Source of the DNA: Candidatus Tenderia electrophaga
GTDB lineage: Bacteria > Pseudomonadota > Gammaproteobacteria > Tenderiales > Tenderiaceae
Direction of reading: 5' to 3'
Assembly: GCA_001447805.1 (NCBI GenBank)
Contig: CP013099.1
Coordinates: 2,923,181 to 2,987,180 of the forward strand
Length of the DNA stretch: 64,000 nucleotides
A program made the translations under genes and the position numbers. This document shows, one piece after another, positions 12,822 to 64,000 of the stretch (positions within the stretch are counted from its first letter, which is position 1; each line of letters opens with the position of its first letter). Under the pieces are notes generated by a model. That model made no database searches and had not been told where the DNA came from. It saw only the letters and a list, made by a program, of their open reading frames with translations.

Positions 12822-12917
12822 TCATCTCAATCCAGAATCGCCTGGGTCATGCAGGATGACGGATATGATAGCCTACTCGCAGTCACCGCCGTCCGACATA
12901 CCGTTTCGAGCCGCCCA

Positions 12918-15900: not shown

Positions 15901-16397
15901 ATGACAGCATCAGCAAGACCGAGCCCGGTTTTACCAGCCGCTGGCTGATTCATTTCCCGGATAAGCCGGCACTCATCGGAGCTGACCGCTTTCTGCTCGC
16001 CCCACGGGCCGAGGACATCACCGCCGAGCCCGGCGGCATACTGGAGGGGCAGGTGCTATTGCCGGCCCAAGCGCAGATCACGCCGGTGGGCGGGCCGGGC
16101 AAGGAATTTTGGGTGAACGGTAAGAATTACGACGACAAGGGCGCGGTGCAGAAAGCCGCCATGCGCGGCAAACGCATGACGCCCGCCGACGCGGGGACGT
16201 GGCGTATTGAGATCACCGCGGCGACGCTTGTGGAGACAGATGAGTTTCTTGTCGCCATGCCCCTGAAACGCAGCTGGTCAGACCCGACCCCCTCCGTCAG
16301 CTGCACGCCGGGAAACGCTGTCATCAATTGCGCGATTACCGGGAAACGTGATATGACATTGCAGATCGCCGCCGACGGCACGGCGACGCTGCAATAA
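12918..16397 (+). CDS. Triple VanZ-like membrane protein fused to heparinase II/III-like domain
   Basis: Large protein of 1159 residues from ATG 12918; an in-frame extension to 12849 is less likely. The first ~440 residues are hydrophobic and contain three similar blocks, each ending in a helix rich in small residues: WIANILLYIPLAYLG to VEFTQIFF, the CTSQWLAETLAALPLG to CLEAAQFL block and the LLAQSAIYLPLGVGF to IEAGKLFIP block, all VanZ-like. After one more membrane helix (KALLGAGGVMLVMGALGLTL) comes an alpha/alpha-toroid region. A heparinase II/III-type beta-sandwich domain follows, with FKAGDNYSSFTHLDQGSFTLY and YAYQTIAHNVATV. The enzyme part is probably periplasmic and acts on uronate-containing or other acidic glycans. 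Substrate and lyase activity are inferred. Confidence 0.8.
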   Translation: MTTHNASRYFLYWLIWAVLIVYGSLLPFELRPHSLAEAIEKFRHIPYLDLGVVSRADWIANILLYIPLAYLGVTWLSRLTWLPRSLAMLFTAALGVALALGVEFTQIFFAPRTVSLNDLIAESIGTALGLIVWSASHSRLAGLATAVLRPGPGALTAGLTLYALAYLGLALFPYDFMVSLADLQWKLLEGRYGWGLEHCDALLHCTSQWLAETLAALPLGLLLVRLMPHRAGRHGGNLGIAVAVGACLEAAQFLIASGVTTVNGALSKAVGIGLGAWLRDIPSPQLAQRHAHWLRPALLLALIPYLVLAALLNGWSGIEWGNWETLRSALDKQRYLPFYYHYFSTETQAVASLLAQSAIYLPLGVGFWLWHASGATPLRRPPVFGLLLSSAAIACVIEAGKLFIPRTHPDPTNLLIGLVAAWLGQRLCQWLAACARAPAPAPAERAPVVRQFPRKALLGAGGVMLVMGALGLTLMQQSADSEAMFVAGIKHDYATPDALPPAVLPNFRTQHPRLPVPTAMEIARLQRENPGFFDDHRRRAAGPRSNPDSAILMAYVEPGSQDLDRLFQHLMALKFNWRGYEQGKRLAHAYDWLYDQWSETQRRQLQDKLAHGCGYLIEVIRSGRLSPYNVTLYSGPAQALTACSIALYQDDPRGDAVMAFSADLWHDRILPVWRQVMGEHGGWHEGADVVAKGIGQAVYQLPNLWRRATSVDYFQSEPGLRGFLDFLVYRIRPDGTQLRLGDSSTFTRDAPDRLALALEYRHAAAYSLAPPPKNPVPTSWPWGPLTDNGLYDPKAVQALPLTKHFDGIGLVVMRSGWDEDATYITFKAGDNYSSFTHLDQGSFTLYKGGPLAIDSGLYYKYGSDHHLNYAYQTIAHNVATVANPAEAAAISNNEFSRTTRSIANDGGQRRVGGNLELYPHPLDLDEWQSKAEIYHTGRITELKQRDGVVMVSADISAAYTNRFSGEGTISSRSRRVERYLRTFIYDRVNDLVLVYDSISKTEPGFTSRWLIHFPDKPALIGADRFLLAPRAEDITAEPGGILEGQVLLPAQAQITPVGGPGKEFWVNGKNYDDKGAVQKAAMRGKRMTPADAGTWRIEITAATLVETDEFLVAMPLKRSWSDPTPSVSCTPGNAVINCAITGKRDMTLQIAADGTATLQ

Positions 16398-21613: not shown

Positions 21614-22723
21614 TCAGAGACAGGTGGAATACAGCTCCTGATAAGCGGCCACCATCCCCTCCAGGGTAAACTGCCGCTCAAACCGTTCGCGCCCTGCCCT
21701 ACCCATTTTCCGGCCAAGTTCGGGATCACTCACAATCTTCAGAAGCGCCGCGACCAGCGCCTCAATATCATCCGAAGGGATCACGACCCCTGAAACGCCG
21801 TCCTCCACCACCTCACTGTTACCCCCCACATCGGTGGCGACAATGGGCCTGGCTGCCGCACTGGCCTCCGCCAAGGTCAATGATAAACCTTCACTCTTGG
21901 AGCACAGGACAAACAGGTCGAGGGCGCTCAGCAACTCAGGCACATCGGAACGCGCCCCCAAAAAGCGGATCTGCCCGGCCAACTCCAACTCATCGCGCAG
22001 GGAATGCAGTTCCTGGCGCAGCGGCCCGTCACCGATAATCAGCAGCACCGCATCCGCACGCTGCTTCGCCAGCCGGGCCATGGCGCGAATCAACAGGGCG
22101 TGGTTCTTGATCGGGTCCAACCGGGCCACGATGCCGATCACCGGCTGATCGGGCGTCAGGCCCAGCTCAGATCGAATGGCGTCGACGTCGTAATCCTGCG
22201 CGAATCTGGCGGCATCGATACCGTTATGAATAGTGGTGATCTTTGCTGCCGCGATACCTTCTTCCTCCGCCAGATAACGCTTGCCGTAGTCGGCCACCGC
22301 CACCACCCGGTCCACCAGCTTGCCTAACACGCGATTCGCCAACCGGGTCTTCCAGCCCGAAGAAAAATCACGCCCGTGCTCGGTATAAACGATACACGGC
22401 ACTCGGGCCAGTTTCCCCGCCAGTGTGCCGTAAAAGAAGGCGGTGGGATTATGCAGATGCAGGATCTGCGGCCGGGTCCGGCGTATAAAGGCGGCAAGTG
22501 TGAAGATGTAGCCTAGATCCACACCCGGCCGGCGCTGCACCAGATGCACGGGAATCCCTCTATCGGCCACCTGCGCCGTGAGGTCGCCCAGGGTATCGAA
22601 ACAGCAGACCACAGGGCTGAAGCGGCTGCGATCCAGGCGTTGCAGAAAATTGACCACCATCATCTCCAGGCCGCCGATCTCCAGCCCCTGAATAAGGTGA
22701 ACCACGCGAACGGAATCGGTCAA
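21614..22723 (-). CDS. GT4-family glycosyltransferase, exosortase-locus type
   Basis: 369-residue GT-B enzyme starting at TTG 22723 (LTDSVRVVHLIQGLEIGGLE), whose first bases overlap the TGA of the upstream sulfotransferase. Frames reaching further upstream lie inside that gene. Seen are HLHNPTAFFYGTLAG, YTEHGRDFS, VVAVADYGKRYL, IHNGID, GIVARLDPIKNHALLI, GDGPLRQEL and CSKSEGLSLTLAEASAA. The N-terminus resembles the sugar transferases associated with PEP-CTERM/EpsH loci (TIGR03088-like). It is translationally coupled to the sulfotransferase, so both probably act on the same glycan. Confidence 0.88.
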   Translation of the reverse strand: MTDSVRVVHLIQGLEIGGLEMMVVNFLQRLDRSRFSPVVCCFDTLGDLTAQVADRGIPVHLVQRRPGVDLGYIFTLAAFIRRTRPQILHLHNPTAFFYGTLAGKLARVPCIVYTEHGRDFSSGWKTRLANRVLGKLVDRVVAVADYGKRYLAEEEGIAAAKITTIHNGIDAARFAQDYDVDAIRSELGLTPDQPVIGIVARLDPIKNHALLIRAMARLAKQRADAVLLIIGDGPLRQELHSLRDELELAGQIRFLGARSDVPELLSALDLFVLCSKSEGLSLTLAEASAAARPIVATDVGGNSEVVEDGVSGVVIPSDDIEALVAALLKIVSDPELGRKMGRAGRERFERQFTLEGMVAAYQELYSTCL

Positions 22724-23613
22724 GAAAGATATCCAAGCTTCTTCAACGTCGGCCCGGCGATCTCCATGGCCTGGGCGATCTCCGCCTCCGGCCAGGATTG
22801 GTAGGTACCGGTATTGGGCATGAAACCCTTGGACTCCTCCGCCTTGTAATCCTGCAGACCGTAATCGTGCTGCTGCTTGTAAAACTCCAGCACCTGTGGA
22901 TCCCACGCCTCGTCCAGAAACTCAAACAGCGGCGGCAGATAGCGCGCCGGCTCGGCGGAATACTCCTCGTATTTAACCCGAAAACACTGCGCCGGGTGGG
23001 CCGCCTCGAAGGCCAGCATCTTTTCGCACTGCTCCATCCAATAGCGCAGGTTAGTCAGATGCGGGGCGCCGGGATACTGATCGGCATATTTTTTACCCGG
23101 CCCGCGATTGACGTCATTTTCATACATCCTCGACATGGAGTTGGCCACATCGAGGCCGTGACGGTAGAGCATGATGTAGCGGCATTGCTCCCCGAAAATG
23201 GCATGCAGAAATTCAATGATGTCTACATAGGATGGTGTTTTATCGAACCAACGTTGCTTGCCCTTGGCCACAGCATAATCATCGAATAGCGCCCCTGCGA
23301 AGCGGCGCAGATGGCGCTGCAGGCCTTGATCGTCGACCCCCATTCCCTGCAGCCCTTTGCGATACCATTCGTCGCCGTGGAGTGAGGCCAAGCCATTGAG
23401 GAAGTTGGACTCCGGTGGTACGGCGATGTTTGGATGACTGTCGAGGACATAACGTAACAAGGTGGTGCCGGAACGATACACCCCGACAATAAATCCGGGC
23501 GGCATCGCCTGACGCGCCGCCCGATCGACTGTTTTAACAATCACTCGCTCACGCACCTGGGGCCCGCCGGCGGCGCCTGAGATTTTTCTTATCACCCGAC
23601 CCAGTAAACTCAT
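22720..23613 (-). CDS. Sulfotransferase (PAPS-dependent)
   Basis: 297-residue cytosolic sulfotransferase from ATG 23613. It has the 5'-phosphosulfate loop VGVYRSGTTLLRYVLDSHPN, the WFDKTPSY segment and the 3'-phosphate motif YIMLYRHGLDVANSMSR, then FRVKYEEYSAEP. The family moves sulfate from PAPS onto a hydroxyl or amine of a sugar or other acceptor. An in-frame extension to 23730 is unsupported. It forms a two-gene unit with the GT4 gene downstream (overlapping stop and start) and is divergent from a deacetylase-like gene. Confidence 0.9.
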   Translation of the reverse strand: MSLLGRVIRKISGAAGGPQVRERVIVKTVDRAARQAMPPGFIVGVYRSGTTLLRYVLDSHPNIAVPPESNFLNGLASLHGDEWYRKGLQGMGVDDQGLQRHLRRFAGALFDDYAVAKGKQRWFDKTPSYVDIIEFLHAIFGEQCRYIMLYRHGLDVANSMSRMYENDVNRGPGKKYADQYPGAPHLTNLRYWMEQCEKMLAFEAAHPAQCFRVKYEEYSAEPARYLPPLFEFLDEAWDPQVLEFYKQQHDYGLQDYKAEESKGFMPNTGTYQSWPEAEIAQAMEIAGPTLKKLGYLS

Positions 23614-26277: not shown

Positions 26278-27147
26278 ATGAAATCGAGATTCATCTCCAG
26301 GCTGGTGAACTCCGTTTCTTTGGGCCGACTGAAATTCGGTTGGTACGACAATGCGTTTTGTAGCGACGCAAATGCCATATTCAGCGGCGGTAGCCCGCGC
26401 AGCGGCACCACCCTGCTCTATTCCCTGCTCAATGCACACGACAATATCTTTATGGCATTGGAAACCGGTCTGATGTCCGGCAACCGAAATCTTAGCCGTA
26501 TTCACGGCAGAACGAATCTATCTGTGCCGGAGTTAAGCGAACTGTATCGCCGCTCGCGCTGCTATCCGGAATTTTCAGAGAAGGTCTTGTCCGGGCTTGC
26601 TGTGGACGCCGGCAAACAACGATGGGGTGACAAGTCGCCCGTCAACGTGACCTTGATAGAAAACATATTCCGCTATTTTCCGAAGTCCCGGTTCATACAT
26701 ATTGTCAGAGATGGTCGCGACGCCGTTTGCTCCATCCGCAATCACCCGCCGTCATTCGGCAATAGGTATAACATCAATCCCTGGGACAAATCGGTGCAGC
26801 TATGGGAATCGTGGACGAGGCAAGGGATAGCATGGCGGGACGACCCACGCTATTACGAGATAAAATACGAGGCGCTGGTCAACAACCCCCAACAGGCCCT
26901 GATAGAGCTGTTCCAATGGTTAGGCGAACCCTGGCAGGACAACATCTTGACCAAGGCTAAGTCCACAAAAGTCTCTTCTCATCTCGGCGTTTCAAAACCC
27001 ATCAATCGTGATTCCTATGGAGCCTGGCAGGCAAAATTACCTCAAGAGGCCAGGGCGCTATTCTATGGATCGGCCAACGAACTGTTGGTCAGCCTGGGCT
27101 ATACTGAGGATGACGCATGGATTGGCGACAAGCCGGTAGATCTATAG
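26278..27147 (+). CDS. Sulfotransferase (PAPS-dependent)
   Basis: 289-residue sulfotransferase with the PAPS loop GGSPRSGTTLLYSLLNAHDN, RWGDKSPVNV, the 3'-phosphate motif FIHIVRDGRDAVCSIRNHP and YYEIKYEALVNNPQQAL. It closes the plus-strand trio deacetylase-GT4-sulfotransferase and meets the GT39-like gene tail to tail, 11 bases away. The grouping suggests that deacetylation, chain growth and sulfation act on one repeat unit. Confidence 0.9.
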   Translation: MKSRFISRLVNSVSLGRLKFGWYDNAFCSDANAIFSGGSPRSGTTLLYSLLNAHDNIFMALETGLMSGNRNLSRIHGRTNLSVPELSELYRRSRCYPEFSEKVLSGLAVDAGKQRWGDKSPVNVTLIENIFRYFPKSRFIHIVRDGRDAVCSIRNHPPSFGNRYNINPWDKSVQLWESWTRQGIAWRDDPRYYEIKYEALVNNPQQALIELFQWLGEPWQDNILTKAKSTKVSSHLGVSKPINRDSYGAWQAKLPQEARALFYGSANELLVSLGYTEDDAWIGDKPVDL

Positions 27148-41156: not shown

Positions 41157-42458
41157 GTGACCACACAATCACACGCGGAAAAGATATTTTGCATCGGCCT
41201 GTCCAAAACCGGCACCACTAGCCTGGCGGCCGCATTAAGGCAACTCGGCTATACGGTCCGGGACAATCTCGGCGTTAGCCGGTATATCCCCGGCGACCTG
41301 AGCTGTGTCGACGAGGCCGAAATTGAGGCCCACGACGCCTTCACCGATACCCCCATCCCCAGCCTCTATCGTGAACTCGACGCCCGATACCCCAATGCCA
41401 AATTTATTCTCACCATCCGGGAAAAAGGGCCCTGGCTAAAATCCTGCAGAAAGCAGTTCACTCAACGCCATGCCAAGGCGCGTCACGACGCCATCAACGA
41501 GCTGTTCATCGATATGTATGGCAGCGCCTGGTTTGACGAGGAAAAATTTTCCGCAGGCTATGACAGATTCGTGGAGGGGGTAAAAGACTATTTCAAGGAC
41601 CGCCCCGATGACCTGCTGATTCTGGACCTTTGTGACGGCGATGACTGGGAACCACTGTGTCGCTTTCTCCACAAGCCGATTCCCGACGCACCGATCCCCG
41701 TCACAAATGTCACCAAAATCCAGTGGATCAAGGCGGAAGATGTCGCCGACATCGCCAGAAAGGCGGGCGCGAATATCCCTACCGCCGACTCACTGAAACA
41801 TTCAAGCGGCTCAGCACCCAAAGGCATGCTGGGCCGCCTCGGCGACAAGGCCCGCAACACCGTCATCGCACGGCGCCGCGCCAGGCTACCCAACATCCTG
41901 GACACCACCTATCAAACAATCGTGGACAACCTCAAGTCCATCGACGCCTCAATACCCGTATTGTCCGAAAAAACCAAGGACACGCCCTACTCAGACCGAA
42001 AGCAATGGAGTCATGCCTGGCTGATCGACACCTTCAAAGGGAAGGACCTGCTGCTCCGGGGTGATAATGGCTTCAGCATCAATATCGCCCTGGTCGAAAA
42101 CGGCAATGTGAGGATGGGGGTCGTCTACTTCCCGGCGACCGATACTGTCTATTACACGAAAAACGGGAGCGTCAGCTATAAACAGTCAGGGGCCGATGAG
42201 GCGCTACAATTGGGCCATGGAGATTCCCGCAGCGACGCATCCTCAGCAACCGCTGAAACAACTCAGGGTAACGCGCCCCTAACGCTATGCAAAGCGGCGG
42301 AAGGCGATACACAACAACCGTACATACGGGGGCAATTCAGAGAATGGGAAATCGCCGCCGCTAACGCCATTCTAAATGGAAGTGGAAAAAGGATTAAAAT
42401 TCCCGAGACCGAGCAGGAACCCAAATACAACAAAGAAACACTAATGATTAACATCTAA
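41157..42458 (+). CDS. Sulfotransferase fused to a degenerate CysQ-like domain
   Basis: 433 residues from GTG 41157. Residues ~9-190 are a sulfotransferase with P-loop-like GLSKTGTTSLAAAL (14-27), ILTIREKGPWLKS in the 3'-phosphate region and ILDLCDGDDWEPLCRFL. After a basic linker, residues ~248-430 align by eye with the PAP phosphatase CysQ: IPVLSEK, WLIDTFKGKDLLLRGDNGFSIN, IALVENGNVRMGVVYFPA and EWEIAAANAIL. The catalytic DPLDGT is changed to DTFKGK (Lys294 for Asp, Lys296 for Thr), WD to WE398, and the N-terminal ~50 residues of CysQ are missing. The second domain is probably inactive and may bind PAP. Confidence 0.85.
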   Translation: MTTQSHAEKIFCIGLSKTGTTSLAAALRQLGYTVRDNLGVSRYIPGDLSCVDEAEIEAHDAFTDTPIPSLYRELDARYPNAKFILTIREKGPWLKSCRKQFTQRHAKARHDAINELFIDMYGSAWFDEEKFSAGYDRFVEGVKDYFKDRPDDLLILDLCDGDDWEPLCRFLHKPIPDAPIPVTNVTKIQWIKAEDVADIARKAGANIPTADSLKHSSGSAPKGMLGRLGDKARNTVIARRRARLPNILDTTYQTIVDNLKSIDASIPVLSEKTKDTPYSDRKQWSHAWLIDTFKGKDLLLRGDNGFSINIALVENGNVRMGVVYFPATDTVYYTKNGSVSYKQSGADEALQLGHGDSRSDASSATAETTQGNAPLTLCKAAEGDTQQPYIRGQFREWEIAAANAILNGSGKRIKIPETEQEPKYNKETLMINI

Positions 42459-42497: not shown

Positions 42498-43385
42498 GTG
42501 CAGATTCTGAACCGCATAACTTCAAAATTACAACATGCCATTTTTGATATTAAGCACATCTTTTCAAAAGACGTTCTTATATTTTATTGGCGTGGCGCCA
42601 ATGATCAAAACTTCGGCGACCAGCTCAATGTTGATCTAATTAGATATTACGGCTTTCAGCCCGTCCCCTGCGCACCGGGAAAAGCCGAAGTCTTCGCCAT
42701 TGGCTCCATTCTGCATAGGTATGCAAAAGGCCACGACGGCATCGTTGCCGGCTCCGGCTATATCAAACCCCCGCAACATATCACTATTAACCCCAAGAAT
42801 ACTATCGCCTTACGTGGTCCGAAAACAAATTCTTATTTCAAAAAAGACGATATACCGCTATGCGACCCAGGTATCCTCGCGAAACGAATATTCGGCTCAT
42901 TCAGTACACAACACCAAATCGGTATAGTCCCGCATTTTCGCGACCAAGACGATCCCCAGCTGCTTAGCTTTCTGAATAATCACCCGGCTATAAAGCTGAT
43001 TGATGTATTGCAAAAGCCCGAGGCGGTCGTCAGGGAGATCGCACAGTGCGAGACCATCTTATCGTCCTCACTACACGGATTAGTAGTCGCGGATTCGTAC
43101 AACATTCCCGCCGTATGGATAAATTTCGATGATCGACAGGAAGGCGGAGAATTCAAATACCTCGACTATCACGGATCTCTCGGCATTGAAAGGCGGAGAA
43201 TATCCTTAGGGGCGACCCCAGACCTCGGCATGTTGTTGGACCAGGCAGTAACGGTCGACCCTCGAGTTACGGATCAAAAAATAATGGAGCTGGAACGCGC
43301 ATTCAGCACACTAAGGCACCGTCTTATCATTCTTCGTATCCACAGAGTGTTCAAGGCGGTATTATCCACAATTATGCATAGGTAA
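42498..43385 (+). CDS. Polysaccharide pyruvyltransferase-family protein
   Basis: 295 residues from GTG 42498. It has FYWRGANDQNFGDQLNVDLI at the N-terminus, IALRGPKTNSYF and the C-terminal signature ILSSSLHGLVVADSYNIPAVWIN typical of the pyruvyltransferase/GT-B-like family. Family members attach ketal pyruvate to sugars from phosphoenolpyruvate. The sequence is clearly more A/T-rich than the genes to its left. It follows the sulfotransferase fusion by 39 bases on the same strand. Confidence 0.85.
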   Translation: MQILNRITSKLQHAIFDIKHIFSKDVLIFYWRGANDQNFGDQLNVDLIRYYGFQPVPCAPGKAEVFAIGSILHRYAKGHDGIVAGSGYIKPPQHITINPKNTIALRGPKTNSYFKKDDIPLCDPGILAKRIFGSFSTQHQIGIVPHFRDQDDPQLLSFLNNHPAIKLIDVLQKPEAVVREIAQCETILSSSLHGLVVADSYNIPAVWINFDDRQEGGEFKYLDYHGSLGIERRRISLGATPDLGMLLDQAVTVDPRVTDQKIMELERAFSTLRHRLIILRIHRVFKAVLSTIMHR

Positions 43386-43437: not shown

Positions 43438-44649
43438 CTATGCGAACAGCTTCCTGAGTCGATAGGGAACATATTTGTTAATGAATGTCGACTTGCCGCT
43501 AGATAGGGGCGCGGGAATATTGTTGACCATTTTGGCGGACAACTTCTGCGACAAGGACGGCGAATAGCCTATTTTTTCGGCATACTCCCTTATTTCTCTA
43601 ATAAATGGATCATCGCTTTTACCCAACAGCGTCTTTACAATATAGGCTTCGCGGACTTCATACCATTTATTCAAATCAAATACATTCGCAAACTTGTCAA
43701 GCTCGCCCAGCAACTCCAAGGTAAACAGCGTCCGGGTACACTTCCAACATGCCGAACAGTTCATTCCATCCTTGCTGCCCACACATACATTCAGCCATTT
43801 ACTGACTCCCTCGATCATTGCCACACGGCCGGTTTTCTCTACACGAGAATACTGCCCGCCGGTAGAGATGCAATCCAATGTCTCGGTGGACAACAAGTGA
43901 ACAGCCATGGCGTCGGCATACGCCATACTATTGGTGTTTCCAACAAAGGCATCCTGATACCTGTACGCCGATGCGTAGTAATACTTGGAAAATAATTTTT
44001 GCAGCAACAGGACGGCCGATACGTTTCTCGGCACATGAGTCTTCTGAAAACTGGATGTAAATATTTCATTAATATTTGAATCAATCTTAATGAAGGGTAT
44101 ATCCATGACATTCGGAAACCCTTTGATCAAATCATATCTTAAATTGAATAGCCGCCGCGCATGCTCCGCATCGTTCCCCAAACCATGTGACCCGACATTA
44201 TTGAAGGCGAAGTGAGTAATTTTGAATCCGTCCGGCACGTCTGCCGCAATCAAATGGTCATAAACAGCGCAAAACGAATCAATACCGGCGGAGAACCCGG
44301 TGACGACGGCTCCGGCACAACTGTATGCACCTTTATCGAATGAATCCGGGACTATGCTGACTTCGTTTAGAGACGGATCTGTCCGTCTGAGGATAGGAAT
44401 ATAATACTGGGTTAGATTATAGAATAATTTTTCTGAAACAGCGCCTTTGACGACCACATCCTCTCTGGCCTGCATCGCCAGATAGATCAGACCGACCAGG
44501 AAGGAATCAAGCTTCTCGGTGGTCAAATATTCTTTATATCTTTTATCGACCGAATACCACAGGCGTTCTTTCTTGCCGGCATGCTCAATAAGCGAGGAGA
44601 CAACCACAATATCGCCGTTTTCACAAATCTCGACGGGATTAATTCGCAT
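43438..44649 (-). CDS. PP-loop ATPase with QueC-like cysteine site
   Basis: 403 residues. A PP-loop (ATP-pyrophosphatase) motif VTGFSAGIDSFCAV lies at 117-129, corresponding to SGG-x-DS. Near the C-terminal third, C289, C298, C301 and C304 (VCV..., NCSACWKC) form C-x8-C-x2-C-x2-C, which I recall as the spacing of the QueC zinc site. Middle segments include FVGNTNSMAYADAMAVH. PP-loop enzymes adenylate a carboxylate, carbonyl or base and let ammonia, sulfide or an amine attack. The substrate here is unknown; the context is polysaccharide modification. No queuosine genes are near. Confidence 0.8.
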   Translation of the reverse strand: MRINPVEICENGDIVVVSSLIEHAGKKERLWYSVDKRYKEYLTTEKLDSFLVGLIYLAMQAREDVVVKGAVSEKLFYNLTQYYIPILRRTDPSLNEVSIVPDSFDKGAYSCAGAVVTGFSAGIDSFCAVYDHLIAADVPDGFKITHFAFNNVGSHGLGNDAEHARRLFNLRYDLIKGFPNVMDIPFIKIDSNINEIFTSSFQKTHVPRNVSAVLLLQKLFSKYYYASAYRYQDAFVGNTNSMAYADAMAVHLLSTETLDCISTGGQYSRVEKTGRVAMIEGVSKWLNVCVGSKDGMNCSACWKCTRTLFTLELLGELDKFANVFDLNKWYEVREAYIVKTLLGKSDDPFIREIREYAEKIGYSPSLSQKLSAKMVNNIPAPLSSGKSTFINKYVPYRLRKLFA

Positions 44650-44692: not shown

Positions 44693-45754
44693 CTAACGCA
44701 TGAGAATTGAACGTTTACCCAACTTCGATGAATTTTTATTGACGTATTTTTCCGTAACCATCAGCACCTGCACTGTGCCGCCGGGCGCTTGCTCTATACG
44801 ACGAACAAACGTCTCCGGTCGAAGATGCTCCTGGTAATATGAAATAACATTATTACGCAGCTCGGCGATTTGCCTCTCTCCCATGCCAAGCACGTGCCGC
44901 ACCTTCCTGGCGAGGTCGTCCGCATCGCCGAAAGCGATACAATTCTTCATGTGCTCAAGCCCGGGCGAGAACCACTCGGGATAATTGATAACCGGAATCA
45001 CACCCAGCGCCATCGCCTCGATCACGTTATGACACATGGGCATACATATCCCCGGCGGCGAAAGAAAGAAATCCGCCCGGGAAAGACGATCAAGCCAGAG
45101 CGCGTCATCCACCCACAGCCTGGTGGTGTCGAGTACCACGAACTTGTTGAGATAATCACCAGCAAAGGCGGCTGACAGCGTCGTTTCATCATCGAGGATC
45201 AATGAGTCGTCCGGCAGCCGCTGAAGCAGGATCTCGATTATCTCCGGTCGCGACAGCTTGACATCAGGATATTTAACCTTTGGTCGGTTATACCCATTGG
45301 TGTCACCGGAGAAAAACAGCCTGAGCCGCTTTTGACTCTTCCGCAAACACCGTAAAACACCATACATATCTTTTCCATGATGCCCCCAATGGACCGGGTG
45401 CATCGGGTAAGGCATCAAAATCGGTTTTTTCGTTAACCAATACGACGAGAAAATATCATATCCCAGCTGAATCTTGCGCTTCCATTTTTTACCGGCACAC
45501 TGCTTATCTTCGCGATCAAACAAATACACAAAGTCCTGACTATTGCCTGGAATAGCATCCGACACCTCGAGTCGGCCGAGAGATAGCGTTAACTGCCCTA
45601 TCCTTGTATCCGGATCAATACTGATCGTGTCGGATAGAATGACTCTGTAACCGCTCACGACAAACACATTTAGAATCGAAAAAATAAGCCGCCCACTCTC
45701 ACTCAGGATATGCTTATCCAGGAACCTCACATAAATGGCGGGGGCGTCATACAT
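44693..45754 (-). CDS. Exostosin-like (GT47-type) glycosyltransferase
   Basis: 353 residues. The C-terminal half contains RADFFLSPPGICMPMC followed by HNVIEAMALGVIPVINYPEW and a DADDLARKVRHVLGM segment. This pattern (S-x-F-x-L-x-P-x-G, then E-A-x2-x-G-x-I-P-V-I) resembles exostosin-family GT47 enzymes, known from heparan and plant wall synthesis. The N-terminal half is not recognisable beyond a likely GT-B fold. Alternatives are other GT-B families. It lies in the A/T-rich part of the island, 43 bases after the GT4-like gene's stop region on the same strand. Confidence 0.65.
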   Translation of the reverse strand: MYDAPAIYVRFLDKHILSESGRLIFSILNVFVVSGYRVILSDTISIDPDTRIGQLTLSLGRLEVSDAIPGNSQDFVYLFDREDKQCAGKKWKRKIQLGYDIFSSYWLTKKPILMPYPMHPVHWGHHGKDMYGVLRCLRKSQKRLRLFFSGDTNGYNRPKVKYPDVKLSRPEIIEILLQRLPDDSLILDDETTLSAAFAGDYLNKFVVLDTTRLWVDDALWLDRLSRADFFLSPPGICMPMCHNVIEAMALGVIPVINYPEWFSPGLEHMKNCIAFGDADDLARKVRHVLGMGERQIAELRNNVISYYQEHLRPETFVRRIEQAPGGTVQVLMVTEKYVNKNSSKLGKRSILMR

Positions 45755-45798: not shown

Positions 45799-46845
45799 TC
45801 AGAGAGCAGCAAGAATTCGCTCCCAAACACTGACCAACACCTGCTCTTCTCTGGCCGGCGAATATTCCGACGCAATAAACTCGGATGCTGCGCGGCGCTC
45901 GGCGGAAAAATACGCCTCATCCTGATTACAGGCGTCGATAATATGTTCCAACTGACGTGCATAGCCGATGATATCACCATCATTAATGGGAAAAGAAAAC
46001 TCCGGCATGAAAAACTCTTTCCCTCCCCAACCGTGATAACCCATCACGATGCAACCACAGGCCATAGCCTCGGCAGCCGGAAGTCCAAAACCCTCGCGGA
46101 ACCCAAAGCTAAGAAAGATCATAGATTCTCGCATCAGCGCCGCAACTTCTTGCTGCGGCCTGTTGATAAAAGGCACCACCTCGAATTCTTCGAGCTTGCC
46201 GCGAAACTTTAGAATATTTACAACCTGCATTGCGTCGGCCTGAGACTTAATGCGGGAAAAACAGATTTGCTTCTTCTTTTCCTTCTGAAAGAAAAACATA
46301 TCCGGATCTATCGAGAGAAAAAAGCGCTGGACATTGGCGCCAGGAAAGGCGTAGTGCACATACTCTTCGCAGTGTTCTGAATTTACAAGAACCGCCCTAA
46401 CAGATTCATCACGATAGGGCGTCTTAAGATTGCTCTTTGAGTATGAGTACCCCTTAAAGGTAAGAAAACCATTCTGGTTAAGGATAACTTTCGGTATACC
46501 CTGCCCAATCTCCGCCAAATCCGGGCCCTGGGTCTCCGTCATAACCAGAATATCATTGCATCCGATCGCAGCCGAGGCACCACCGATAATGGGAATATCA
46601 GTCAGGCCATCGTCCTTGACACACCTCCTGATCTTATTACGTGCCCGGAGAACAAGAGATCTTAGCGGAAAGCGGGTATAAGCTATCCGGGTATTATTGG
46701 GAAACCAAGTACACCTGAACCCATTTTTCTGGTGCAGAACGTAGGCAGGTATGCCATGGCTATTAAGAATATCTACATGGCGATAGATAACACGGATACC
46801 ACCGGTTGGATTGTCACTATGAGGACATAGATAGTAAATCGCCAT
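45799..46845 (-). CDS. GT4-like glycosyltransferase
   Basis: 348-residue GT-B protein. It begins AIYYLCPHSDNPTGGIRVIYRHVDIL and has LVMTETQGPDLAEIG, VILNQNGFLTF, VLVNSEHCEEYVHYAF and the donor-binding region LSFGFREGFGLPAAEAMACGCIVMGYHGWGG (split here: EGFGLPAAEAMACG is the core). It probably adds a sugar within the glycan repeat unit. It starts nine bases after the sulfotransferase stop on the same strand. Codon use is A/T-rich. Confidence 0.82.
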   Translation of the reverse strand: MAIYYLCPHSDNPTGGIRVIYRHVDILNSHGIPAYVLHQKNGFRCTWFPNNTRIAYTRFPLRSLVLRARNKIRRCVKDDGLTDIPIIGGASAAIGCNDILVMTETQGPDLAEIGQGIPKVILNQNGFLTFKGYSYSKSNLKTPYRDESVRAVLVNSEHCEEYVHYAFPGANVQRFFLSIDPDMFFFQKEKKKQICFSRIKSQADAMQVVNILKFRGKLEEFEVVPFINRPQQEVAALMRESMIFLSFGFREGFGLPAAEAMACGCIVMGYHGWGGKEFFMPEFSFPINDGDIIGYARQLEHIIDACNQDEAYFSAERRAASEFIASEYSPAREEQVLVSVWERILAAL

Positions 46846-46854
46846 AGCAGATCT

Positions 46855-48303
46855 CTATTCCTGTTCCGCGTCTTGTTGTGCAACATCCGACGCAGAGGAC
46901 GACCACAAACTAATACGTTTTAATAGCATCTGGGTGAAATTCGGATCATCCGCGCGCAAACATTTATCAATCCCGGAACCGTAATATTTCTTTAGCTCGG
47001 CCAACGATATTCTTTTTTCACAGTTTAAAACTGTAACTGTGGACATCTTCACCATGACCTTCTCGACCATGCGGCGTAGCCACCATTTTCTAGATAGCTC
47101 AGGAAACGGCTGAAACACCCACACCAGCTTGGCATTTGCAAACTTTAATCTCAACAACAATAAGACAACTCGCATAATAAATACTATTGACGTCACTTTA
47201 CTCGTAGACGATGGATGCGGCAGAGGCACTTCCTCAGTAACCCACAGGTCAGGCATCGACCCACAGACCGGATCAAGAAGAGAGCCAACGTTCTCCAGTC
47301 GCACAGAGTGACTTCCATTAGCTATAGCTTGCAAGATAGTGTCATATAGATCTCGGTGTTGGCGAGATACAAGCATCAGCTCCGAGGTGCGCAAAACAAG
47401 AGATGGAATCGTGCTTGTTGTTATTAAGTCATACCCCCATGCTCTTAATTCATCTTGCGCAATCATCTCGGACACCCGTAATTTATCGGGTAAAACATTA
47501 TTCCGCCAAGCCGCCACCTTAGATTTATCAACAGACATTGCGGCTTGATTCATATGACTTCCGGTCGTATCAAGCAACGTCTTCTCTGTACCGTCAGGAA
47601 CTAGCATACGATCGTCGAACGGCACTCCCAGAAAGAGGCAGATCTGTCGAACGATAGTTCCTGGATTCTGCACAAGATCCTCATAACGAATCGCCAGCGT
47701 ATTATTGTCATTTTCTGCAAATGTGCGGCCGCCAGAATTTGCCTGCCTCCACAGCCATAAGTTTTCATAGAAATTTGAACTTCCAAATCTAACCTTTGTC
47801 AACGAATGCGCAACATCTCTACCATCCCTAACAATAATGATTATTGGTGCTTCTGGAAAAAGGAATCGAATGAATGGAAGACAAAGAATATGATTAGGTG
47901 TCTTTTCAATCCACAATGACTTCCCATAGTGCTCACTGATTGTTTCACCTAATGCAATAAAAGCTTCTCTACCGGTAACGACCTGTCCTCCAACTCGCTC
48001 ATAGACCAGGTGAGCCGGCTTATTCCAGTCTGCCGTGGGCTTCATACTATCCACAATTTTGTATAACGAATCCGGCCATTCACGCTCAAAACACTCAGGC
48101 CCACCTGGGTATCTAAAGAGTCTGTATAGAAAATTCGTTTCAGGTGTTACACATATTTCCGAATGACGATTCAAAATTGCCGAGACGAGCGTCGTACCAC
48201 TGCGCTCCTTACCAACAACAAAAGCAGGCGAATGAAAAGCAGATCGACACTGAGAAACATTGCCGGCAGAGCGATCAAAATCAACAGTATGGGTGGTATT
48301 CAT
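46855..48303 (-). CDS. Sulfotransferase with a long C-terminal extension
   Basis: 482 residues. The first ~295 are a complete sulfotransferase: FVVGKERSGTTLVSAILNRH (28-47), WIEKTPNHIL, IIIIVRDGRDVAHSLTKV and LAIRYEDLVQNPG. The remaining ~185 residues are unusual: a hydrophobic stretch VTSIVFIMRVVLLLLRL, then ANAKLVWVFQPFPE and VTVLNCEKRISLAELKKYYG. These resemble the acceptor half of a GT-B glycosyltransferase, with no donor half. The extension may be a gene-fusion remnant or a membrane-binding part. Visible A/T-richness (one sampled 60-base line is 35% G+C) suggests foreign origin. Confidence 0.83.
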   Translation of the reverse strand: MNTTHTVDFDRSAGNVSQCRSAFHSPAFVVGKERSGTTLVSAILNRHSEICVTPETNFLYRLFRYPGGPECFEREWPDSLYKIVDSMKPTADWNKPAHLVYERVGGQVVTGREAFIALGETISEHYGKSLWIEKTPNHILCLPFIRFLFPEAPIIIIVRDGRDVAHSLTKVRFGSSNFYENLWLWRQANSGGRTFAENDNNTLAIRYEDLVQNPGTIVRQICLFLGVPFDDRMLVPDGTEKTLLDTTGSHMNQAAMSVDKSKVAAWRNNVLPDKLRVSEMIAQDELRAWGYDLITTSTIPSLVLRTSELMLVSRQHRDLYDTILQAIANGSHSVRLENVGSLLDPVCGSMPDLWVTEEVPLPHPSSTSKVTSIVFIMRVVLLLLRLKFANAKLVWVFQPFPELSRKWWLRRMVEKVMVKMSTVTVLNCEKRISLAELKKYYGSGIDKCLRADDPNFTQMLLKRISLWSSSASDVAQQDAEQE

Positions 48304-48397: not shown

Positions 48398-49186
48398 CTA
48401 TTGTTGCTTTCGAGCTACTAACTGACGAAGCCCAGCACGTTCAGTAACGGGAATATCAAATGGTGGTTTCTCTTGATACAACTGAAATCCACACTTTTCC
48501 AGAAAGGCACATATTTTTAGATTATCCGCACCCAAATGGGGATGAAGATCGAGAAGCAACACCAAGTCTGGATAAGTTCGTAGCGTATTTTCCGCCCCTT
48601 TTAGAACAAGCATCTCGGCTCCTTCCACATCGATTTTCATGACACGAATAGGCGTCTCCATAGCTTGTTTTTCAAGTACGCTATCCAGGGTACGAGTCTG
48701 CACCGTAATTACACCTTCTGCCCGGTTCTTTTGTCCAGGAATCAAAGTATGCCACCCACTCTTACTGCCAAGATGTAGTTCAGCAGTACCGTTTTCATCG
48801 CTTAATGCCATTTCGAAAAGCATAACGTTAGTGTAGCCATTACGACGAGCGCTTTTGTTAATCCAATGACAATTGCTAGGCTCTGGTTCAAACGCCAACA
48901 CCCGCCCTTCTTCGCCCACGAGCTTTGCGGCTAATAAAGTAAAATCCCCTTTATTTACGCCCACATCAACAAAACAGTCTTTTTCCCGCAGAAAATGCTT
49001 AAATGCCGCGTGTTTTTCTGGTTCATATCTCCCCATCGCCCGCGCAAGCATCATCTGGGATTCGGAGATATCCAGATAGATATCACCTCCAGGAACACGA
49101 TAAGGAAAATAGAAAGATGGAATAAACCGCGCCCAGCTATCATGATGTTTGAGGAGCCACTCGGCAAATACCATTTTCGCTTTCAT
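48398..49186 (-). CDS. FkbM-family methyltransferase
   Basis: 262 residues with a SAM-dependent fold of the FkbM type: FVDVGVNKGDFTLLAAKLVG (motif I), VLAFEPEPSNCHWINKSA, VMLFEMALSDENGTAELH, the TRTLDSVLEK segment, IRVMKIDVEGAEMLVLKGA and LLLDLHPHLG. FkbM enzymes O-methylate sugars and polyketides. It is the gene after wzt on the same strand (four-base gap), so it may place a methyl group on the glycan, possibly as the end mark read by the Wzt carbohydrate-binding domain. Confidence 0.9.
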   Translation of the reverse strand: MKAKMVFAEWLLKHHDSWARFIPSFYFPYRVPGGDIYLDISESQMMLARAMGRYEPEKHAAFKHFLREKDCFVDVGVNKGDFTLLAAKLVGEEGRVLAFEPEPSNCHWINKSARRNGYTNVMLFEMALSDENGTAELHLGSKSGWHTLIPGQKNRAEGVITVQTRTLDSVLEKQAMETPIRVMKIDVEGAEMLVLKGAENTLRTYPDLVLLLDLHPHLGADNLKICAFLEKCGFQLYQEKPPFDIPVTERAGLRQLVARKQQ

Positions 49187-49190
49187 TAGC

Positions 49191-50486
49191 TCAGTCCTTA
49201 ATTTTACGTGGCAGGATCGCTGATGTCTCCGGCAAGGTTGCGGGCACAGAAAAAAATTGGTTACCTAGCAATTCCCACGAGGCGTCTACATTAACAAGCC
49301 TCATCGGTGCCTGACGAGACTCTTCACTCGTTGGTCGAACCGAGAACATTCTTAATGTTTCACCGGAAAATATTACCCGCCGATACTGATCAAAAACTGC
49401 AATCCGGATACAGTAGACCCCAGGCGCTATCGGGTAAGATGGAATACAGCATTCAACCTCATATAATCCCTGGGGGAAATCCGGCCGGTTTTCGAATATG
49501 GCCGTTGAGTTAGCGGTAAGATATACAAAGTCAGTTGTATGCGTTCCGATTACGATTTCCGGCTTCTTCACAGCCTGGTTAAATCTAAATGCCACCCGGA
49601 TTCGCAATGGCTCGCCGGAATGAATCTCTTCAGTGGTTTCGCCGTGAGTATCTAGCAATACTATTTTCTCAACGTCGACTTCTCCCGAGCTTTTTATTCT
49701 TTTTCTCGACCCATGTTCCTGCGTGGAATCGGAATGAATTTTGTCATTACTACGTTGATAAAATAGGGTGCAAACTTCGCCCGAGTCTCCATCTTTCAAG
49801 ACTTTTCCATGATCAAGCAAAACAACGCGGGAACACATTCTTTCAACCTGCCTGATATTGTGACTAACAAGCAGTACAGTCCTCCCCTGCCCCTTAATTA
49901 CATCCTCCATCCGATCAAAGCACTTACGTTGAAAGGCCAGATCACCCACCGCCAGTACTTCATCAACGATCAGTATCTCCGCCTCGATACTAGTGGCGAT
50001 GGAAAAACCCAGCCGCACCTTCATGCCCGAGCTGTAGCGCTTTATCGGGGTGTCTATGAATTCTTCCAGTTCGGCGAATGCGACAATTTCGTCGACTTTC
50101 TTCTTGATCTCGGCACGGGGGATGCCGAGGATGCTGCCGTTGAGATAGATATTTTCACGGCCGGTGAGATCCCCAATCAGGCCCGCCCCCACCTCGATCA
50201 GCGGCGCCACCTTGCCGCTGACTTTAACCGAACCGCTGGTGGGCTGAACAACATTGGACAGGATTTTAAGCAGCGTACTTTTGCCGGCGCCGTTTTGCCC
50301 GATGATACCGACGACTTCGCCCGGTTCCACCTTGAAGTCGATGTCGTCCAGTGCCTTGAATACTTTGCGTTGCGGCGCAGGCTGCCCCTTCAGCCTCGCC
50401 ATCAGACCTGTCAGATTGTCTTTGAAACTGGTGAGCTGTCCCAGGCGGAATTCCTTGCTGACGTGATTGACTTCAATTGCTGACAT
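49191..50486 (-). CDS. wzt: Wzt-type ABC exporter ATPase with C-terminal glycan-binding domain
   Basis: 431 residues. The ATPase domain (1 to ~245) has Walker A IGQNGAGKST (62-71), the QPTSGSVKVSG loop, signature YSSGMKVR, Walker B ILIVDEVLAVGD and LLVSHNIRQVERM, as in KpsT/Wzt. The last ~180 residues form a beta-rich domain (VEKIVLLDTHGETTEEIHSGEPLRIRVAF, LYEVECCIPSYPIAPGVYCIRIAVFD) like the Wzt C-terminal domain that recognises capped polysaccharide ends. It works with the permease gene upstream to export an undecaprenyl-linked glycan across the inner membrane. Confidence 0.93.
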   Translation of the reverse strand: MSAIEVNHVSKEFRLGQLTSFKDNLTGLMARLKGQPAPQRKVFKALDDIDFKVEPGEVVGIIGQNGAGKSTLLKILSNVVQPTSGSVKVSGKVAPLIEVGAGLIGDLTGRENIYLNGSILGIPRAEIKKKVDEIVAFAELEEFIDTPIKRYSSGMKVRLGFSIATSIEAEILIVDEVLAVGDLAFQRKCFDRMEDVIKGQGRTVLLVSHNIRQVERMCSRVVLLDHGKVLKDGDSGEVCTLFYQRSNDKIHSDSTQEHGSRKRIKSSGEVDVEKIVLLDTHGETTEEIHSGEPLRIRVAFRFNQAVKKPEIVIGTHTTDFVYLTANSTAIFENRPDFPQGLYEVECCIPSYPIAPGVYCIRIAVFDQYRRVIFSGETLRMFSVRPTSEESRQAPMRLVNVDASWELLGNQFFSVPATLPETSAILPRKIKD

Positions 50487-50567: not shown

Positions 50568-51386
50568 TCAGATCACGTCCGCAAAATGGGCTTCGGCCCG
50601 CTTGAAATAGATATAACTGAGGGGCAACAGGATCAGGATGGTGATCAATCCGGGCCAGATGGCGCCGATATCCGGCGCCATACCCTGCAACATCGCCTTC
50701 TGGAAGGCGTCGATGATGCCCGCCAGGGGGTTCATCATATATAGCGTATAGAGCATGTCTGACCATTCACCCGCCGCCTGCTGAGTCAGCAGCCTTTCCT
50801 TTACCAGGGCCAGGGGATAAATGACCGGCGAAAGATACATCAGCAGGGAGAGCACGACGGGCAGGCCCGTTCTTACATCACGGTAATAGACGTTGGCGGC
50901 CGCCCCGGCAAAGGCAACGGTGAGGGAGACGATAATGGTATAGAGGATGATCAACGGCACCCAGAACACGTGGATGGTCGGCGCCATTTTGTAATACACC
51001 ATCATGCCGGCCAGGATCAGGAAACTGATACACAGTTCGACCAATTTGGTCAGCACCGAGGTAATGGGGAATATTTCTCGCGGGAAATAGATCTTTTTGA
51101 TGAGATTGGTATTTCCGACCACGCTGTTGACACCTTCGGCCGTCGCCTCCTGGAAAAAAATCCACGGCAGCAGGGCGGCGAACACCAGGATTGGATAAGG
51201 TATATCGCCGCTGTCGATACCTACGAAGCTCTTTACCACCGTAAAGATCAGCATCAGCATCAGGGGCTTGAGCAGGGCCCAGGCGATGCCCATATAGGCC
51301 TGCTTATATCGTACGGTAATAGTCTTCCAGGTCAGCGCCGCCAGCAGTTCGCGGTAGCTGTATAGATTGTTTATAACGCGCAGCAT
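50568..51386 (-). CDS. wzm: Wzm-type ABC exporter permease
   Basis: 272 residues from ATG 51386 (MLRVINNLYSYRELL); longer in-frame reading upstream has no family support. It is an ABC-2 type permease with six helices and the cytoplasmic YKQAYMGIAWALLKPLMLMLIF start, LPWIFFQEATAEGVNSVVGNTNLIKKIYFPREIFPI and a C-terminal NPLAGIIDAFQKAML. This matches polysaccharide and O-antigen exporters. Together with Wzt it forms the transport channel for the island's glycan. It is divergent from the GT4 gene at 51866. Confidence 0.93.
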   Translation of the reverse strand: MLRVINNLYSYRELLAALTWKTITVRYKQAYMGIAWALLKPLMLMLIFTVVKSFVGIDSGDIPYPILVFAALLPWIFFQEATAEGVNSVVGNTNLIKKIYFPREIFPITSVLTKLVELCISFLILAGMMVYYKMAPTIHVFWVPLIILYTIIVSLTVAFAGAAANVYYRDVRTGLPVVLSLLMYLSPVIYPLALVKERLLTQQAAGEWSDMLYTLYMMNPLAGIIDAFQKAMLQGMAPDIGAIWPGLITILILLPLSYIYFKRAEAHFADVI

Positions 51387-51865
51387 GATGTTTGCTTGTC
51401 CATCGATATTCTTATGATTCTGTATCGGCCCTAAATAACAAAATGTTACCGGGCGCACTAGCTGATGAGCCGTTTTCTTCCAAGCGGCAGGGCGGGATTT
51501 TAACATCTTTGTCGGGATGGGTATTATCGAGGTAAACACGCAGGCGGACTGATGACACCACACCGGATATGTCGATTTTCTTTACAGCCGTTGGAGGGTA
51601 GCGCCCGCTATCGCAGCGGCTTCTCCCGTACCCGGGCAAGCGCGGGGATTTCGACACCGTGAGATACGCATGGGGAGGCCCATAGCGCCATACTCCACTA
51701 ATACACTTATTAGTTATAAGGTTATTGATGGCGTTCGCGCTTTGGGCGGGGGTACGGTATTCTGCGCGGTCAAACGCATCTCCTGTAGCGCCCTGCGAAA
51801 CCGGGTCGGCGACCCAACCCTTTCCATCGGCGTGGAAGGTAAAAACAGGTATAAGTCACACATAA
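51387..51865. other. Divergent intergenic region between wzm and a GT4 gene
   Basis: About 480 bases; must contain promoters for the wzm-wzt-fkbM unit and for the plus-strand GT4 gene. CTAATA (51698-51703) and TATTAG (51708-51713) form a short dyad that could be an operator. Frames crossing the region do not resemble known proteins. No JUMPstart-like sequence was noticed. Confidence 0.4.
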
Positions 51866-62378: not shown

Positions 62379-64000
62379 TTAACAACGCAGCACCTGGCGC
62401 GCAAAGGATTCAAACATCAGTAATGACCACAGCGGCACACTGTAATCGCGCCGCCCCGACTGATGCTGGTCCACCATCTCTTTCAGAAACCTGCTGTTGA
62501 AATAGCCGGTCTCGGCCAGCACCGGCCCCAGCACCGCCTGGCGCACACGCTCTTTGAGTGGCCCGCGAAACCAGCTGGCCAGGGGCACGGAGAAACCCAT
62601 CTTGGGACGATACAGAATGTCGTGGGGCAGATGGGACGTCAGTGCCTTTTTGAATACGGCCTTACCTTCACCGCCCTTGAGTTTCATATCGGGCGGCAAG
62701 GTGGCCATCCATTCCACCAGCTTGTGGTCCAGCAACGGCACCCGCACTTCCAGGGAATGGGCCATGCTGGCGCGGTCTACCTTGGTGAGGATGTCGCCCG
62801 CCAACCAGGTCTTGATATCCAGGTACTGAACAAAGGATAGCGGGTGGTCCGGGGCGTGTTTGGCATGTTGCTTGAGAACATCGACAGCGTTGTAGCCCTG
62901 CAGTTGGTCTTTGAACTGCCGGCTGAATAGTCGGCTGCGCAGCGGATCGCCTAGATGTGAAACGCTGTGAAAATAGCCGCCCACGCTGTCGCGCGCCAAG
63001 GCTTCGAAGGTGGACTTGGCGCGCAGCACCTTGGGGGCCCAATCCGCCTTGGGATACAGCTTGCCCAGCAGACCGAAGACGGGCCGGCGGATGGCCGCGG
63101 GCATAAAGGCGCGCATCCGTTCTTCATGCAGGTGCCAGCGATAACGGCGGTAACCGGCCAGGTTCTCATCGCCGCCGTCACCGGAGAGGGCCACGGTGAC
63201 GCGTTTGCGTGCCAGCTGGCAGACGCGGTAGGTGGGCATGGCGGAACTGTCGGCAAAGGGTTCGTCATAGAGGCCGGCCAGCTTGTCGATCAGGTCGAAG
63301 TCGTCCGGATTGACCTCCTCCACCTGGTGATCGGTGTGATAACGCTCGGCCACCTGGGCGGCATAGCGCGCCTCGTTGAATTTGGGGTCGCCGAACGAAA
63401 TAGAACAGGTATTCACCGGTTTATCGGACAGGCCGGCCATCATGGCCACCACGGCACTGGAATCGACACCGCCGGAGAGGAAGGCGCCCAGCGGCACTTC
63501 GGCGACCAGGCGGATATCCACGGCTTCTTTGAGCCGCTCGAGCAACTCGCTACCGGCCAGAATCTCGTCGCCGGGCCCGCTACTGCTAAAGCTTACATCC
63601 CAATACTGTCGCGGAGAGGGCAAGGCCTGACCATGACGCAGCGTGAGGATATGGCCGGGCGCCAGCTTGCGCGCCTGACGCAGGATGGTCTTGGGATCGG
63701 GCACGTAACCGTAGGCGAAGTAATCCTCCACCGCGCGGGGGTCAATATCGCGCTGCAGACCCGGATGGGCCAGCAGCCCCTTGAGTTCGGAAGCGAAGAT
63801 AATGTGGCCGTCATCCAACTGCGCGTAGTAAAGCGGCTTGATGCCGAGCCGATCGCGCGCCAGAAATAGGGTCTGCCGATTGCGGTCCCACAGGGCGAAG
63901 GCAAACATACCGCGAAAGCGCTCGACACAGGCCTCGCCCCACTCTTCCCAGGCATGGACGATGACCTCGGTATCACAATGGGTGCGGAAGCTGTGGCCCA
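62379..64000 (-). CDS. Asparagine-synthase-like amidotransferase, exosortase A-associated (partial)
   Basis: The frame runs off the right edge, so the first part of the protein, with the glutaminase Cys2, is missing; about 540 residues are seen. Visible are the end of the class II glutaminase domain (GHSFRTHCDTEVIVHAWEEW, MFAFALWD, LFLARDRLGIKPLYYA, IIFASELKGLLAHPG) and the synthetase PP-loop FLSGGVDSSAVVAMMA with ALSGDGGDENLAGYRRYRW. AsnB-like enzymes of this type are standard members of exosortase A loci (XrtA-system amidotransferase, TIGR03108-like) and probably amidate a uronic acid or another carboxylate of the glycan. The ATG at 63908 is internal, not the start. Confidence 0.93.
   Translation of the reverse strand, partial: GHSFRTHCDTEVIVHAWEEWGEACVERFRGMFAFALWDRNRQTLFLARDRLGIKPLYYAQLDDGHIIFASELKGLLAHPGLQRDIDPRAVEDYFAYGYVPDPKTILRQARKLAPGHILTLRHGQALPSPRQYWDVSFSSSGPGDEILAGSELLERLKEAVDIRLVAEVPLGAFLSGGVDSSAVVAMMAGLSDKPVNTCSISFGDPKFNEARYAAQVAERYHTDHQVEEVNPDDFDLIDKLAGLYDEPFADSSAMPTYRVCQLARKRVTVALSGDGGDENLAGYRRYRWHLHEERMRAFMPAAIRRPVFGLLGKLYPKADWAPKVLRAKSTFEALARDSVGGYFHSVSHLGDPLRSRLFSRQFKDQLQGYNAVDVLKQHAKHAPDHPLSFVQYLDIKTWLAGDILTKVDRASMAHSLEVRVPLLDHKLVEWMATLPPDMKLKGGEGKAVFKKALTSHLPHDILYRPKMGFSVPLASWFRGPLKERVRQAVLGPVLAETGYFNSRFLKEMVDQHQSGRRDYSVPLWSLLMFESFARQVLRC

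Follow-up and report, generated by a model that had tools for sequence, protein, structure and literature searches.

Locus and gene content

The window, that is, the whole 64-kb stretch of DNA that was analysed, encodes on its minus strand a PP-loop protein of 403 amino acids, P0001, which belongs to a branch of QueC-type, ATP-using enzymes that has not been catalogued. At 43438-44649 only the minus strand gives an open frame; that of the plus strand contains 11 stops. The gene, its parts and its neighbours are as follows:

42498..43385, plus strand: polysaccharide pyruvyl transferase-type protein, 295 aa (PF04230, 38.9 bits with a cut-off of 25.3, C-terminal part only)
43438..44649, minus strand: QueC/QatC-like PP-loop protein P0001, 403 aa (ATG start, open ORF)
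44317..44649, minus strand: N-terminal alpha+beta domain of P0001, residues 1-111 (weak RNase H-like arrangement)
44275..44295, minus strand: PP-loop FSAGIDS of P0001, residues 119-125
43738..43785, minus strand: QueC-type cysteine site of P0001, C289-x8-C298-x2-C301-x2-C304 (four Cys in 103/103 relatives)
44693..45754, minus strand: probable glycosyltransferase (PF00534, 17.5 bits, weak, below cut-off)
45799..46845, minus strand: family 4-type glycosyltransferase (PF00534, 29.2 bits, over cut-off)
46855..48303, minus strand: sulfotransferase (PF13469, 106.7 bits)
48398..49186, minus strand: FkbM-type methyltransferase (PF05050, 85.6 bits; TIGR01444 over cut-off)
49191..50486, minus strand: Wzt-type ABC transporter ATPase with Wzt C-terminal domain, glycan export (PF00005 and PF14524)
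50568..51506, minus strand: ABC-2 type permease, Wzm-like (PF01061, 50.4 bits)

An earlier, sequence-only reading had described the gene as lying in a polysaccharide locus within an A/T-rich block, and both parts of the description hold. Glycosyltransferases, a sulfotransferase, an FkbM-type methyltransferase and a Wzt-type ABC transporter are encoded on the same strand, the start of the PP-loop gene being 43 bp downstream of the probable glycosyltransferase gene, and G+C is 0.455-0.477 over 42-50 kb versus 0.516-0.654 in every other 2-kb bin of the window. The pyruvyl transferase-type gene on the other side is convergent with the PP-loop gene, with 52 bp between their ends; the two thus do not form one operon or transcription unit, and their partnership in the window is by neighbourhood only. 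The motifs that the same reading had pointed out are in place: FSAGIDS occupies residues 119-125, the loop SAGxDS being one letter away from SGGxDS, and C289, C298, C301 and C304 have the spacing C-x8-C-x2-C-x2-C.

The surroundings hold other genes worth recording. Four sulfotransferase-type genes lie within 26 kb by glycan genes (22720-23613, 26278-27147, 41157-42458 and 46855-48303), which suggests a sulfated surface polymer. In one of these frames, 41157-42458 on the plus strand, a sulfotransferase domain (PF17784, residues 57-186) is followed by a CysQ/inositol-phosphatase-like region (about residues 251-410; TIGR01331, 90 bits, far under the cut-off of 228.8). DPxDGT is the usual metal motif of CysQ/inositol-phosphatase-type proteins; the frame has DTFKGK in its place and, to judge from these residues, its phosphatase part may be inactive. 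A 1182-aa protein (12849-16397, plus strand) combines a VanZ domain with a heparinase II/III-like C-terminal part, and an asparagine synthase-type amidotransferase (62379-63908, minus strand; PF00733, 357 bits) lies at the window edge; genes of the latter type also adjoin several PP-loop-family relatives of P0001.

Predicted fold

The AlphaFold2 model of P0001, built from 30 alignment rows, has a mean pLDDT of 86.9 and a pTM of 0.85. In a DALI-like comparison, its top structural match was QatC (9y01; Z 15.2, rmsd 4.7, 302 residues, 8% identity), residues 1-371 of the model aligning with residues 6-457 of QatC, and QueC (3bl5 and 2pg3; Z 12.3 and 12.0) and Cap9 (9nto; Z 11.6) came below it, while TilS, MnmA, LarE, TtuA and ThiI reached 8.7 or less (8.7 for TilS and MnmA). 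Foldseek alone was weak, the best match being QueC 2pg3 at E 0.025. Profile-profile comparison saw the cysteine motif only, with a probability of 19% to QueC and 6.7% to QatC, and the kinship therefore rests on the fold, the loop and the zinc-type site together. According to the model, P0001 has a PP-loop fold of the adenine-nucleotide alpha-hydrolase type and belongs to the QueC/QatC branch, which is in line with the ATP-pyrophosphatase loop claimed by the sequence-only reading; a different fold, which would have spoken against that reading, did not appear.

The structural scores also bear on the idea that P0001 is a sulfur transferase of the LarE/TtuA/MnmA kind, which would give a glycan a thio-acid or thioamide group. 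These enzymes are PP-loop relatives (Z 8.7 and below) and the locus contains many sulfotransferase genes, though those transfer sulfate, not sulfide. However, the scores are well under those to QueC and QatC and, outside the four-cysteine site, the next best cysteine column is occupied in 47/103 aligned relatives and the one after it in 35; with no fifth conserved cysteine, thiolation is disfavoured, and we regard a sulfur transferase as highly improbable.

The N-terminal domain, residues 1-111, was also folded alone (pLDDT 94.0). It looks weakly RNase H-like, with a best Z of 4.8 and a best Foldseek E of 0.0085 to RNase HI, and QatC was absent from the match list of the domain alone. We considered and rejected a nuclease role: despite the RNase H-like layout, Z is only 4.8 and the best-conserved acidic column of the domain is occupied in 62/103 relatives.

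A family with its own signature

P0001 reaches no Pfam or NCBIfam cut-off, DUF6395 (PF19932) coming nearest at 18.5 bits; the comparison with NCBIfam gave nothing beyond one unrelated row at E 0.16, and single-sequence searches with P0001 found no relative in genome contigs, viral contigs, phages or the PDB. The family is too divergent for single-protein searches, and profile searches were therefore needed. By tblastn and profile searches, relatives were found in 8/369 and 9/369 genomes of the class; they occur in 10/398 genomes of the phylum and in 2/56 related genomes, the window's own genome being counted each time, and six other genomes of the genus, 77-95% complete, had no family member. 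Relatives are also present on nine plasmid records, from Azospirillum and Paracoccus, and at 63 loci in the genome-contig collection, found by pattern search and tblastn. The family is spread over Pseudomonadota, Actinomycetota, Verrucomicrobiota/Kiritimatiellales, Omnitrophota, Cyanobacteria, Anaerolineales, Nitrospirae, Acidobacteria, Firmicutes and candidate phyla. No description of it was found in the open-access literature searched on QueC, DUF6395, pyruvyl transferase and exopolysaccharide topics.

Of 113 profile matches in 92 loci, 109 remained after a length cut at 300 aa, and 103 rows after a duplicate filter and a coverage filter. Across these 103 relatives, G122, D124, N297, K303 and the four cysteines C289, C298, C301 and C304 are invariant, so that the loop motif and the cysteine site are not chance resemblances; R269 (101/103) and K272 (102/103) are nearly so. 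The loop pattern [ST]-x-G-x-D is found in all 103 (SAGID in P0001), and the stricter SGGxDS in 65/103 and in 7/7 QueC controls, where P0001 has SAGIDS. The cysteine site reads NCxxCxKC in 103/103 relatives versus 0/7 QueC and 0/6 QatC rows, and at the level of sequence the family has a signature of its own.

In a quick tree, the window protein forms one clade (99 SH-aLRT) with a protein from genome G734 (37% identity) and a Paracoccus protein (30%), and the same three with two more rows form a second clade (96 SH-aLRT); the loop in this clade is SAGIDS, SAGVDS or SCGVDS. The Paracoccus yeei plasmid pYEE4 (L011, 11455-13131) encodes a relative of 558 aa, which is extended at its N-terminus by about 170 residues. 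That these residues might be the remnant of a pyruvyl transferase was considered and rejected, as they gave no Pfam row at E 0.01 and no profile match. Several loci carry at least two copies of the PP-loop family, often close together (L080, L088, L085, L101, L065, L069, L060, L115 and L121).

The canonical QueC motifs are SGGxDS, C(x)8CxxCxxC, YxQxHxxE, VPxRN and YPDC, as given in a 2026 study of the QueC family (PMC13329287). Of these, YxQxHxxE, VPxRN and YPDC were each found in 0/103 relatives and in 7/7 QueC controls. The Pfam QueC model (PF06508) gave no row for P0001 at E up to 1 and matched 4/13 relatives weakly, with a best E of 0.004, and the canonical QueC of the same genome lies outside the window, at 2888756-2889385 (E 3.9e-80). 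The sequence-only reading had noted that no queuosine genes are near, and neither these in general nor queD or queE in particular were seen when the window gene list was read by eye. P0001 is not the queuosine enzyme, and the earlier doubt about a tRNA-modification QueC was well placed. One might still think of a QueC paralogue of the queuosine pathway, intact or decayed, that resides in a polysaccharide island by chance: the fold branch and the cysteine spacing are those of QueC, and queC (exsB) of S. meliloti lies within an exopolysaccharide cluster, yet is a gene of queuosine synthesis (PMC3568095), from which it follows that genomic place alone does not show function. However, the substrate motifs are missing from all 103 relatives while every control has them, the genome already has a canonical QueC elsewhere, and a family that keeps its own invariant NCxxCxKC, absent from the seven QueC controls, is not a decayed QueC. 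We give this explanation hardly any credence.

Linkage to pyruvyl transferase-type genes

The neighbours of the family were tabulated with home-made gene calling; loci L064 and L078 were dropped as no family gene was called in them, and duplicates (L070, L084, L013 and L111) were removed, whereas near-identical pairs such as L093 and L094 were kept. Among immediate neighbours of 120-1000 aa at 84 loci, the Pfam family PS_pyruv_trans (PF04230) accounted for 27/152 (11/76 and 16/76), being the commonest family in both immediate-neighbour lists; among 135 genes sampled from 423 that lie at least six genes away, it was absent from the 25 families listed. With an iterative PS_pyruv profile run on all called genes, the matches numbered 26/154 at a distance of one gene, 5/137 at two, 2/140 at three and 2/683 at four or more. 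After removal of the two seed genes, the contrast was 24/152 adjacent versus 2/683 distant (Fisher p 8e-17, with genes treated as independent, which they are not quite, some loci coming from near relatives).

Counted by locus, 27 of 86 have an adjacent PS_pyruv gene and 34 have one within three genes, and the adjacent pairs are on the same strand in 22/27 cases. One fusion protein of 753 aa carries both domains, with PF04230 at residues 401-608 (48.9 bits), and in Azospirillum the PP-loop and PS_pyruv genes form an isolated pair, flanked by a multicopper oxidase gene on one side and molybdate transport genes on the other. On the tree of 103 rows, the linkage label must change at least 26 times, and thus the linkage arose or was kept in many lineages. 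It is also uneven: the adjacent gene was found in 2/24 loci of evenly drawn genomes (plus the fusion) versus 23/59 loci retrieved by pattern, and since the retrieval used patterns from three proteins, the fusion among them, part of the latter rate is clade sampling.

Genes for family 2 glycosyltransferases, flippases and asparagine synthase-type amidotransferases are also common beside the family. By eye, however, many loci have no nearby glycan gene, examples being those beside ribosomal proteins (L063), ferritin-like genes (L047) or a carbonic anhydrase. The glycan context suggested by the sequence-only reading is thus borne out by the commonest neighbours of the homologues, which are PS_pyruv_trans and other glycan genes, though many loci are of another kind; a predominance of tRNA-modification genes, which would have spoken against that reading, did not appear among the commonest neighbour families. 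Overall, the family represents a new branch, not yet catalogued, of an established superfamily, and its recurrent partner is an unusual one.

Proposed chemistry

PP-loop enzymes split ATP into AMP and PPi while activating a substrate oxygen; QueC activates a carboxylate (CDG) in this way and then adds ammonia. The known targets of QueC-fold enzymes are nucleobases and, in phage defence, protein N-termini. As the CDG motifs are gone from the P0001 family and a glycan partner recurs beside it, we propose a sugar or glycan carboxylate as the substrate and an amide as the product. In this scheme, P0001 would hold zinc in its four-cysteine site and adenylate a carboxylate on a sugar or glycan intermediate, releasing pyrophosphate; ammonia or an amine would then attack the acyl-adenylate to give the amide. 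The plainer candidate for the carboxylate would be a uronic acid; the boldest, a pyruvate ketal made by the partner. P0001 probably performs a chemical modification of a surface sugar chain, and to the fuller statement, that it is a zinc-binding ATP pyrophosphatase activating a carboxylate in a surface-glycan pathway and forming an amide, we assign an even chance, its substrate and product being the conjectural parts.

Among the amidation, nitrile formation and thiolation that the sequence-only reading had left as options, amidation-type chemistry appears the most plausible by analogy with QueC and Cap9, of which the former joins CDG to ammonia and the latter to a protein N-terminus (PMC13279940, PMC13329287). 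A more daring version makes the neighbouring genes a two-protein module: the partner would place a pyruvate ketal on a surface glycan or glycolipid; the carboxylate so introduced would be activated with ATP by the QueC-like enzyme and coupled to ammonia or an amine, which would mask its charge. We hold this version to be doubtful. If it is true, amidation of a pyruvate ketal would, to our knowledge, be a type of glycan decoration not described before. More generally, a glycan-linked branch of the QueC fold that spans many phyla and keeps its zinc-type site invariant would widen the known chemistry of bacterial surface sugars, and the PP-loop and pyruvyl transferase-type proteins offer a concrete enzyme pair, an example being the isolated two-gene unit of the Azospirillum plasmids.

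Comparison with known systems

QatC, of the qatABCD anti-phage system (9y01; NF041925), resembles P0001 in having a QueC core, an N-terminal extension and a four-cysteine site, and the canonical CDG motifs are missing both from it and from the P0001 family. Cap9 of type IV CBASS (9nto) shares the QueC core (Z 11.6) and, according to PMC13279940, keeps the CDG-binding Tyr and Asp and couples CDG to a protein N-terminus; unlike Cap9 as described there, the P0001 family is without the YPDC motif. The two systems raise the possibility that P0001, too, conjugates a protein, adenylating a small acid and attaching it at the N-terminus of another protein, for which the pyruvyl transferase-type protein would be a candidate. 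QatC, including its N-terminal extension, is indeed the best whole-protein structural match, QueC-fold enzymes are able to use a protein amine (PMC13279940), and the family has a recurrent partner and one fusion. The details, however, point elsewhere: the QatC model NF041925 (cut-off 280 bits) matched nothing in the window's own genome, P0001 included, and among 13 relatives gave a best E of 0.018, in two of them; the STRTxHP stretch of QatC is found in 0/103 relatives versus 6/6 QatC controls; PADLOC, run on 10 window proteins, gave rows only for the Wzt ATPase and none naming a qat gene; and the partner N-termini share, by eye, neither a motif nor a glycine-2. A conserved N-terminal glycine, as in CBASS and qat, was thus looked for by eye in the partners and dropped as a candidate feature. 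We consider protein conjugation improbable, and a role of P0001 in phage defence is less likely than one in glycan modification.

A second established group comprises the N-acetyl sugar amidotransferases of the WbpG/PseA kind, which draw ammonia from a glutaminase partner to convert the N-acetyl group of a sugar into an acetamidino group. WbpG, placed in cluster 5 of the PF06508 network in PMC13329287, is a PP-loop protein of O-antigen synthesis; it is likened to P0001 by a length of 300-400 aa and by surface-glycan synthesis, the P0001 gene itself sitting in a glycan locus. Its cluster differs, however, in the cysteine pattern, which the same paper gives as CxxC(x)6CxC and which in P0001 is C(x)8CxxCxxC. 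Nor did P0001 have an NCBIfam sugar-amidotransferase row at E up to 1, no such model was among the families matched by 13 relatives, and no HisH/HisF-like partner was among the 25 commonest neighbour families listed. That P0001 belongs to this group is, in our judgement, as improbable as protein conjugation, and amide formation on a sugar or glycan carboxylate remains the reading we prefer.

DUF6395 (PF19932) matches P0001 weakly and just at the cysteine site, the 18.5 bits being under the 25-bit cut-off and only 34 residues, 273-306, being covered. Compared with canonical QueC (PF06508; 3bl5, 2pg3), P0001 is about 180 residues longer, as the sequence-only reading had remarked in calling it much longer than QueC, and is without the YxQxHxxE, VPxRN and YPDC motifs, but has in common with QueC the PP-loop core and the C(x)8CxxCxxC site.
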